NCBI GenBank assembly: GCA_024653355.1
Contig: JANLFQ010000001.1
Span: 1,076,576-1,140,575, forward strand
DNA length: 64,000 bases
Origin: a candidate division WOR-3 bacterium
GTDB taxonomy: Bacteria; Hydrothermota; Tepidihabitantia; Tepidihabitantales; Tepidihabitantaceae
Direction of reading: 5' to 3'
Shown here: positions 10,920-12,873 of the stretch, in pieces
How the letters are laid out: each line of letters begins with the position of its first letter
Numbering within the stretch: position 1 is the first letter of the stretch
Notes under the pieces: generated by a model
Seen by the model: only the letters and a program-made list of their open reading frames with translations
Told to the model about the DNA's origin: nothing
The model's database searches: none
Made by a program: the position numbers and the translations under genes

Positions 10920-10947
10920 ATATATAAATGTATAAAGGAGGTTCGCA

Positions 10948-11511
10948 ATGCGTTTCAAGGTCGGTTTGCTGATTGTGCCGTTTGTTCTTGGCTTGTGTTT
11001 AAGCCAGGAACTTCTGGTTAATGGCAACTTCGAACAGGAGTTGTCTATTGGCTGGACTTATACCGATAGCGGTCTCGGCACCCATCAGGTACAGCGCGGC
11101 ACTGAATATCAACCGGACCCGGACTACGAAGCCTGGGTTTATCAATACGACAACCCGGGCTGGACAAGGCTCAGTCAAAAGGTTGATGTGCCGGGCATCG
11201 CCCTGAACCTATCCTTCTGGGCAAAGTTTACGGAAAGTGGTGGCACTTCGACCTGCTGGCCTGCAGCCTGCTTTCAGGTGTGCTACTATGATATCAACGA
11301 CAACCGCCTGGGTGAAACCCGTTACTACTACTCCACCTACGCCACCTGGACACCAACTCCGACTTTAAGCCTCTACCGCATCACCAACCCGGACTGGAAC
11401 CGGTACGAATTAAACATCGCCGATGAACTTATTGCCAATTTGCCCGGTATCAACCCGGGTGATATCGCCAAAGTTGAAGTTGCGCTCTGGAGTTATACCT
11501 ATTCGGGCTGA
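10948..11511 (+). CDS. Secreted surface protein, N-terminal part up to in-frame TGA
   Basis: The 187 codons before an in-frame TGA. The protein starts with a signal peptide (RFKVGLLIVPFVLGLCLS, cut near residue 19). A carbohydrate-binding-like β-sandwich follows, beginning LLVNGNFEQ and carrying three cysteines (STCWPAACFQVC). Excellent ribosome site AAGGAGG. The same frame continues directly after the TGA into the 450-codon segment at 11521-12873, so this is one 641-residue protein read through the TGA, not two genes. A SECIS-like hairpin follows the TGA, so selenocysteine is a possible reading. A nonsense mutation or sequencing error is the alternative, in which case this piece alone would be secreted without its anchor. 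Confidence 0.75.
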   Translation: MRFKVGLLIVPFVLGLCLSQELLVNGNFEQELSIGWTYTDSGLGTHQVQRGTEYQPDPDYEAWVYQYDNPGWTRLSQKVDVPGIALNLSFWAKFTESGGTSTCWPAACFQVCYYDINDNRLGETRYYYSTYATWTPTPTLSLYRITNPDWNRYELNIADELIANLPGINPGDIAKVEVALWSYTYSG

Positions 11512-11539
11512 GGCACTCCGGTGGCGGAGGTCTCCGCCG
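11509..11539 (+). promoter_or_regulatory. In-frame TGA with bacterial SECIS-like hairpin
   Basis: TGA at 11509-11511. The stem 11523-11528 (GGCGGA) pairs perfectly with 11533-11538 (TCCGCC) around the tetraloop GGTC (11529-11532). The first loop G is 18 bases after the TGA. From memory, the E. coli fdhF SECIS has an AGGUCU apical segment about 18-23 bases after its UGA, and SelB contacts the loop GU. The loop and spacing here match that closely. It is also ordinary coding sequence (Ala-Glu-Val-Ser-Ala), so coincidence in GC-rich DNA remains possible. Confidence 0.5.
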
Positions 11540-12873
11540 ATGACATCTCCTTAATTAACAACAATCAAGGTCCTTACATCCTGCTCAGCAGCAGAACCGT
11601 TCTGGACTCGCCGCCGGGCGGCAACAACAATGGGCGATTTGACCCGGGGGAAACGGGCGGTTTAATTGTCGGCTTGCGCAACATCGGTAATCAGGGAGTG
11701 GACAGTGTCTATGTCAAGTTACGCTCTTCTGACAGCCGCTTCGTTATCACCGACTCAATCAGCTCCTACGGCTCAATTCCTGCTGGCGCAACCCGAACCA
11801 ACGAAACCGACCCATTTGGCGTTCAGGTTGACCATTCAATCCCGATTGAAACACCGGTAACCCTTTACCTTTTCATCAACGGCACCGGCTACAACGACAC
11901 AATTCGCTTTAACATCGTGGTTGGCGAATTACGACCTTCCGACCCGATACCGGACAACGGCAATCCGCCCCGTTACTGGGCTTACGACGACATTGACACC
12001 CTCTATCCCCAGCATCCCAACTTCTCCTGGATAGAAATCAACAATCGGGGCACTCGCCTATCCCTTAGTGATGACCAGACGATTACCATTGACCTGCCGT
12101 TCACCTGGCAGTTCTACGGTTCAACCTATACTCAAATCTCCATCTGCTCCAATGGCTGGGTCGCACCGGGTTTCACCACCACCACCGCTTACAACAACAC
12201 ATCGTTACCCACGACATCTTTACCGGGTGCCATCTGCCTTAACTGGGATGACCTTTATCCACCGGTTGGTAACGGCGTCTGGTACTTTTACGACGCCGAT
12301 AACCACCGCTTTATTGTCGAATGGGATTCGGTACACTATTTCCCTGGCTCCGGTGCCCCTTATGAACGATTCCAGCTCGTCCTCTACGACCCAACGACCC
12401 CGACTCCGACCGGCGACAATCTAATTGTCGTCCAGTACCTCACCGCCAACCAGTACACTTCAAGCACCGTTGGTATCCAGGACCCGAGCCAGACCATCGC
12501 TATCCAGTGCCTGTTTGACAACAACTATCATCGAGGCAGCGCCCCAATCGCTCCGGGCCGGGCAATCAAATACACCACTGCGGCCCCAAGCGCAATCGCT
12601 GAAGAACCCAAAACCCATCCCGCTCAACTGGCACTCATCTGTTATCCCAACCCCAGCCGCGGAACGGTCCGATTCTTCTCAAACCTTGGCACCGATGTGC
12701 CTGTCAACATCTACGACCGCACCGGCCGGTTGGTGCGCACCCTTTCAGACCGTGAAAACTGGATTTGGGACGGCAAAGACGCACGGGGCAAACCCGTACC
12801 ACCCGGTGTTTACTTCTCCCGCCTGAACTCACCGGAAATTCAGGCTGAAACAAAGTTCGTTATCGCCCGCTAA
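11521..12873 (+). CDS. Surface protein, continuation after TGA, with C-terminal sorting-type domain
   Basis: The downstream 450 codons in the same frame as 10948-11511. No ribosome site precedes the nominal GTG at 11521, so independent initiation is unlikely. Content: a CARDB/Ig-like segment (about 20-135, DPGETGGLIVGLRNIGN), a β-rich domain with ICSNGWVAPG and NDDLYPP-like text, and a C-terminal tail of about 75 residues starting at CYPNPSRGTVRF. The tail continues through IYDRTGRLVRTL and ends GVYFSRL...KFVIAR. The tail is of the Por-secretion/FlgD-like type that directs export or attachment in FCB bacteria. A strong terminator follows the stop. Confidence 0.75.
   Translation: MAEVSADDISLINNNQGPYILLSSRTVLDSPPGGNNNGRFDPGETGGLIVGLRNIGNQGVDSVYVKLRSSDSRFVITDSISSYGSIPAGATRTNETDPFGVQVDHSIPIETPVTLYLFINGTGYNDTIRFNIVVGELRPSDPIPDNGNPPRYWAYDDIDTLYPQHPNFSWIEINNRGTRLSLSDDQTITIDLPFTWQFYGSTYTQISICSNGWVAPGFTTTTAYNNTSLPTTSLPGAICLNWDDLYPPVGNGVWYFYDADNHRFIVEWDSVHYFPGSGAPYERFQLVLYDPTTPTPTGDNLIVVQYLTANQYTSSTVGIQDPSQTIAIQCLFDNNYHRGSAPIAPGRAIKYTTAAPSAIAEEPKTHPAQLALICYPNPSRGTVRFFSNLGTDVPVNIYDRTGRLVRTLSDRENWIWDGKDARGKPVPPGVYFSRLNSPEIQAETKFVIAR

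Follow-up and report, generated by a model that had tools for sequence, protein, structure and literature searches.

Introduction

How does a bacterium read a gene that is open from end to end except for one stop codon? The question arises in a 64,000-nucleotide stretch of DNA (hereafter the window; G000:C1:1076576-1140575) from a 1.88-Mb, 98% complete genome of candidate division WOR-3/Stahlbacteria (NCBI phylum Caldifarciminota), where a frame running from 10948 to 12873 is interrupted solely by the TGA at 11509-11511 and, translated through it, gives 641 residues ending at TAA. The initial annotation, which had described this frame correctly, proposed that the TGA encodes selenocysteine (Sec) in a secreted surface protein. 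Redox enzymes, many of them thioredoxin-like, make up most of the prokaryotic selenoproteins, and nearly every one of these selenoproteins has numerous Cys homologues. Here, drawing on comparison of the gene with its homologues, we conclude that UGA-188 is almost certainly decoded as Sec in a secreted protein, and we consider what the residue may do there. The features of the gene are collected in the table below.

Table. Features of the window gene, numbered from the first base of the window
Feature	Position	Strand	Evidence
Shine-Dalgarno AGGAGG, strong, ahead of the gene's ATG	10936..10941	+	sequence
Predicted selenoprotein gene, 641 codons plus TAA, UGA-188 read as Sec	10948..12873	+	translation; orthologue alignment
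Signal peptide, residues 1-20	10948..11007	+	sequence; model helix 2-17
Sec domain, residues 21-205, CBM-like beta-sandwich	11008..11562	+	AlphaFold2 pLDDT 96.5; Foldseek
Candidate thiol partners of Sec188: Cys103, Cys108, Cys112 (STCWPAACFQVC)	11254..11283	+	alignment
In-frame TGA, predicted Sec188	11509..11511	+	column U in 99/100 domains, Cys in 1
SECIS hairpin; stem 11523-11528/11533-11538, loop GGTC 11529-11532	11523..11538	+	covariation
Ig/CARDB-like beta domain, residues 206-325	11563..11922	+	orthologue alignment; full-length model
T9SS type A sorting domain, residues 566-639	12643..12864	+	TIGR04183, 29.8 bits, cut-off 23

Gene structure and domain organization

The strong ribosome-binding site of the window gene has counterparts in its relatives, GGAGG-type sites lying upstream of most orthologues. 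The two halves of the frame had been proposed to form one secreted protein with a sorting-type tail, and this was borne out by the signal peptide and by a TIGR04183 match above its curated cut-off. The tail falls just under the cut-off of Pfam PF18962 (25 vs 27 bits), and the host genome encodes the SprA translocon (454.9 vs 200 bits). Both the sorting domain of a type IX secretion system (T9SS) cargo and, as judged by SprA, the matching machinery are present. After the Sec domain comes an Ig/CARDB-like module, where the part begins that numerous stop-free proteins of these genomes share. A middle module, found in many of their stop-free surface proteins, and the T9SS tail follow. Domain boundaries are all that was taken from the full-length model (pLDDT 72). 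Some members of the family are about 300 aa long, and, going by such members, the Sec domain with a short remainder is its smallest unit.

The Sec domain, modelled with AlphaFold2 from a 100-domain alignment, is a beta-sandwich (pLDDT 96.5) in which Sec188 occupies the loop between the last two strands. Foldseek matched it to the carbohydrate-binding modules CBM16, CBM61, CBM4 and CBM11 (E about 1e-5 to 1e-8, TM about 0.5-0.6) and to similar phage tailspike domains. Neither Pfam nor NCBIfam has a model that covers the domain, which is CBM-like by its modelled fold and matches no Pfam CBM family by sequence.

The initial annotation had also stated that no ribosome site precedes the downstream half. 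This needs a caveat, as a weak GAGG (11510-11513) stands 7 nt ahead of an in-frame GTG at 11521, and the locus could accordingly be read as two cistrons, with translation stopping at the UGA and reinitiating at this GTG or a nearby start. Its substance nevertheless stands: the GTG is not kept as a start, being replaced in homologues by codons for E, L, W, S, P or T, and a separate downstream product would have no signal peptide and, of the sandwich, just the last strand. We consider reinitiation extremely unlikely and a single product read through the UGA the better account.

Conservation of the UGA codon

Orthologues from the same genus, family, order and class, 35-86% identical to the window protein, align full length across the UGA, each with one internal TGA. 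Searched with a profile built on residues 21-205, the N-terminal domain, 45 of the 65 genomes of the class and 50 of the 147 of the phylum proved to carry the family, at up to nine copies each. Exactly one stop, a TGA at the Sec column, is present in 112 of 114 distinct full-length domains; TGA fills that column in 113 of them, one with an extra TGA, and none of the 114 contains a TAA or TAG stop. U stands at this column in 99 sequences of the 100-domain alignment, and Cys in one.

A single TGA within a frame that is otherwise open looks like a point mutation, and a nonsense mutation or assembly error splitting one gene had been named as the main rival to Sec. The alignment of homologues called for in the initial annotation refutes this reading through the conserved TGA column, to which Cys is the lone exception: the same codon recurs across some 50 WOR-3 genomes and in records assigned by their labels to other phyla, both halves of the gene stay conserved, and the hairpin described below covaries. 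The probability left to mutation or error is vanishingly small.

Two members depart from the common pattern. L118 (G003:C1:2500109-2500666) is alone among full-length members in having Cys (TGC) at the Sec column, and thus the single case of Cys in a non-Sec homologue; its motif VRVLADN is still able to pair across an AGTC loop and resembles a former SECIS. L095 (G064:C196:4692-5246) carries, beside the Sec codon, a second TGA at the invariant Trp36, which is probably a TGG-to-TGA mutation or a sequencing error.

The first search profile contains the SECIS-coded motif and favours Sec forms, and exclusivity was judged by a query without the Sec part. This query, ending before Sec (residues 21 to about 177), recovers the same family, the Cys copy being the only close non-Sec relative, so the near absence of non-Sec forms is not an artefact of the query. 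On the sequences sampled, then, nearly every member of the family is a Sec form. Three very weak matches to the Sec-less query, in G119, G117 and G025, were rejected as members, being distant, stop-free CBM-like domains without UGA at the site.

Family copies are also found in contigs labelled Eisenbacteria, Krumholzibacteriota, Cloacimonadota, Thermoanaerobaculales and Desulfuromonas (L165-L215). The labels are the records' own, and some of them may be old or may come from wrong binning.

A conserved in-frame UGA does not by itself name the residue inserted, and an ordinary amino acid could be placed there by code reassignment or a programmed leaky stop, with no selenium involved. UGA is, however, a normal stop in this host, ending 14 of the 41 long genes of the window, which is too common for reassignment, and the sole stop-free copy of the family has Cys at the site. 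Moreover, the element downstream of the UGA matches a bacterial SECIS kept by covariation, and genomes that lack sel genes also lack the family, as detailed in the next two sections. An ordinary residue is thus very unlikely, and Sec remains the reading that we follow.

The downstream hairpin

The 6-bp stem with a GGTC loop reported directly after the TGA was found as described (GGCGGA-GGTC-TCCGCC, 11523-11538), its first loop G at +18. It ties for the top hairpin score among the 54 TGA sites in the window with the frame open on both sides. The folding energy of the site alone is ordinary (z -1.1), so the case rests on comparative evidence, and Rfam returned no SECIS family match at the site.

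Across 116 Sec copies, the distance from UGA to loop takes four values, 3 bases apart, which put the first loop G at +18, +21, +24 or +27. Among 63 distinct sequences, 99.2% of the cells for the six stem pairs are paired, and changes on both sides occur in 49 cells against 11 expected. None of 500 shuffles equalled the real alignment in pairing, in covariation score or in how many pair types it holds, pairing fell to 20-60% in slid-partner controls, and the two loop-closing base pairs were 100% paired vs 83% when shuffled (0 of 10,000). The loop is GGTC, rarely AGTT or GGTT, with an invariant G at its second position.

The strand encoded by the hairpin reads A-x-V-z-A-D-D, and the hairpin might therefore be a by-product of this protein motif, with no RNA signal; the last strand of distant CBM-like domains indeed ends similarly (xxxDDVSL). 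Against this, x and z co-change as paired codons (E/S, K/F, R/L, Q/C, W/Y). The x/z pairs observed (KF 60, ES 40, RL 6, EF 5, RF 2, QC 1, WY 1, KL 1) can be understood only as codons pairing across the GGTC loop. Synonymous choice is restricted as well: the Val codon in the loop is GTC or GTT in 117 of 118 copies, almost always GTC, whereas all four Val codons are used elsewhere, and for the flanking Ala residues GCG prevails on the 5' side and GCC on the 3' side, a preference that Ala codons at other places in these domains do not show. On a tree computed with the hairpin-coded columns left out, the x/z pair type changed at least 12 times, with about three independent pairs on well-supported branches; taken alone, this tree test of a compensatory E/S to K/F switch is weak.

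A constraint on the protein alone is hardly credible given these codon patterns. Lying just 3' of the UGA, with G at the first two loop positions and under selection, the hairpin has the attributes of a bacterial SECIS, and its conservation with compensatory changes among homologues upholds the proposal that it functions as one.

Selenocysteine machinery and co-occurrence

The genome search suggested by the initial annotation, for sel genes and a tRNA-Sec with a UCA anticodon, found the complete set: tRNA-Sec (74.2 bits, anticodon tca), SelA (553.5 bits), SelB (386.6 bits) and, directly after selB, a selD gene whose own active-site codon is UGA (TCAG-U-ASKLS). UGA-containing SelD is an accepted kind of selenoprotein, and its presence in the same genome therefore serves as an internal positive control. 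The host has two selD genes (G000:C3:221946-222854 and G000:C3:28006-28923), one, adjoining selB, with UGA and the other free of TGA.

Each of the 45 class genomes with the family carries at least one Sec-machinery gene, and a full-scoring SelB is found in 40. The five family-bearing MAGs without a full selB in the assembly are G002, G015 and G059, which have selA, G029, which has a UGA-containing selD, and G061, which has tRNA-Sec. Conversely, the 11 class genomes without selA, selB or selD above cut-off, comprising all eight of family f8 together with G042, G008 and G019, hold zero family copies; in G008 and G019, weak tRNA-Sec-like matches just above the cut-off probably represent other tRNAs. 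The association between the family and selB has a Fisher p of 9e-5.

In G029, whose MAG is without selA or selB, probably through missing contigs, two family genes lie in tandem (G029:C11:29875-31352). In G051, two family genes stand beside selA, selB and tRNA-Sec, all within about 8 kb (G051:C48:44475-52586).

Cysteine partners and possible function

The cysteines upstream of the UGA had been suggested as redox partners of Sec. The suggestion holds in part: at least one Cys at 103, 132 or 187 is present in every domain (100 of 100), but the position of the partner shifts between subfamilies. About half of the family has Cys187, which forms a vicinal C-U pair with Sec188. Cys103 and Cys187 are anticorrelated (Fisher p = 3e-8, a value not controlled for phylogeny and resting on few independent tree events). 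We rejected the Cys187/Cys103 swap as proof of a redox pair, as the independent tree pairs are too few and the pattern is confounded by descent.

In at least eight genomes of one WOR-3 clade, an Omp28-related, lipoprotein-like gene with its own in-frame UGA (UxxC) lies downstream of a family gene on the same strand. Its thioredoxin-like product carries UPxC in most cases and otherwise UGFC or UIFC. Where the ORF ends were mapped, the gene is immediately downstream (L190:7100, L201:7100, L173:9237 and, on the - strand, L042:3685); in other loci it lies within the flank (L172, L214, L175, L196). The window gene has no UxxC neighbour. The Omp28-like neighbour fits an extracytoplasmic redox pair in that clade, though a fit is not proof.

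We lean moderately towards a surface thiol/selenol redox role for the Sec domain. A competing view of its function, which accepts that Sec is inserted, would have the residue bind a metal or metalloid, or form an intermolecular covalent cross-link at the surface. CBM-like scaffolds usually bind rather than catalyse, the position of the Cys partner varies, and some members, about 300 aa long, consist of little more than the Sec domain, all of which would suit such a role. It accounts less readily for the constant presence of at least one candidate thiol partner and for the UxxC selenolipoprotein neighbour in one clade, and we hold it to be possible, if somewhat doubtful.

Proposed mechanism

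The sequence evidence above supports both Sec decoding and surface sorting well. In the mechanism that we propose, SelB and Sec-tRNA(UCA) would recognise the GGUC hairpin starting 11 nt after the UGA, and the full-length protein would be exported via its signal peptide, type IX secretion then sorting it to the surface. Sec would thereby be placed in the last loop of the CBM-like beta-sandwich, with the hairpin-coded motif A-x-V-z-A-D-D forming the next strand. If residues alternate along this strand, x and z would face outward and so be free to follow the demands of the RNA.

On the redox interpretation, Sec may form a selenenylsulfide with a partner Cys, namely the vicinal Cys187 in about half of the family and Cys103, Cys108, Cys112 or Cys132 elsewhere. 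The Sec domain would then act as a surface redox module, perhaps served in one clade by the adjacent UxxC Omp28-like selenolipoprotein.

Relation to known systems

With E. coli FdhF and the SelD of the same genome, the window gene shares an in-frame UGA, a hairpin with a GGUC-type loop about 18-21 nt downstream and the presence of SelA, SelB, SelD and tRNA-Sec, while differing in fold, export, family and the near absence of Cys forms (1 of 114). Like other T9SS type A cargo (TIGR04183), its product has a signal peptide and a C-terminal sorting domain, with SprA in the genome, but in addition carries a predicted Sec; we know of no other selenoprotein among T9SS cargo. CBM16, CBM61, CBM4 and CBM11 share with the Sec domain the fold, an LxNGxFE start and a DDxSL last strand, whereas the Sec domain is only 10-18% identical to them, has no Pfam CBM match and bears Sec in its last loop, the likeness being one of predicted fold.

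The Omp28-related selenoprotein (NF045500) and the Omp28 lipoprotein (NF033782) offer a parallel as extracytoplasmic selenoproteins, and a weak relative of them is encoded beside the family in one clade; these proteins are, however, thioredoxin-like with UxxC and not homologous to the Sec domain. The CU and GUxG selenoprotein families (among them SaoL, SaoC and hypothetical protein DG; PMC13188914, Table 1) have a similarly short Sec motif with similar letters (CU, GU), but no NCBIfam selenoprotein model matches the window family.

A 2026 review counts 119 prokaryotic selenoprotein families or subfamilies, its table including those of Haft and Tolstoy 2025 (PMC13188914). None of the 119 is a CBM-like, T9SS-sorted family, and neither a Table 1 entry nor an NCBIfam model places the window family in a catalogued selenoprotein family. 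As far as the titles, abstracts and counts of open papers go, there is no report of a selenoprotein in connection with type IX secretion, WOR-3/Stahlbacteria/Caldifarciminota or carbohydrate-binding modules. A secreted, surface-sorted, CBM-like selenoprotein family has thus apparently been undescribed so far.

Two features of the family bear on its detection. Standard stop-to-stop gene calling cuts each copy into two false genes. Current finders rely on Cys homologues, and deep-Sep may miss selenoproteins without them (PMC12013277); with one Cys copy in 114, the family would be missed by homology-based finders.

Implications

Taken together, these observations may describe a large, near-Sec-only family of surface selenoproteins, in which a CBM-like binding scaffold has been turned into an extracellular selenol redox module. 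The family would have expanded across WOR-3, reaching up to nine copies in a genome, and would have been transferred to other phyla or be held in common with them; the codons of its last strand would be held by the SECIS, and a relay with an outer-membrane UxxC Omp28-like selenolipoprotein is possible. For this joint reading as a whole, we judge the case for and against to be evenly poised.

The family raises the question of why an organism would spend Sec outside the cell while almost never swapping it for Cys. It also offers a clean natural case in which an RNA signal dictates amino acids that co-vary. It would add to the selenoproteome a fold, the CBM-like beta-sandwich, a location, the T9SS surface cargo, and a phylum, WOR-3.
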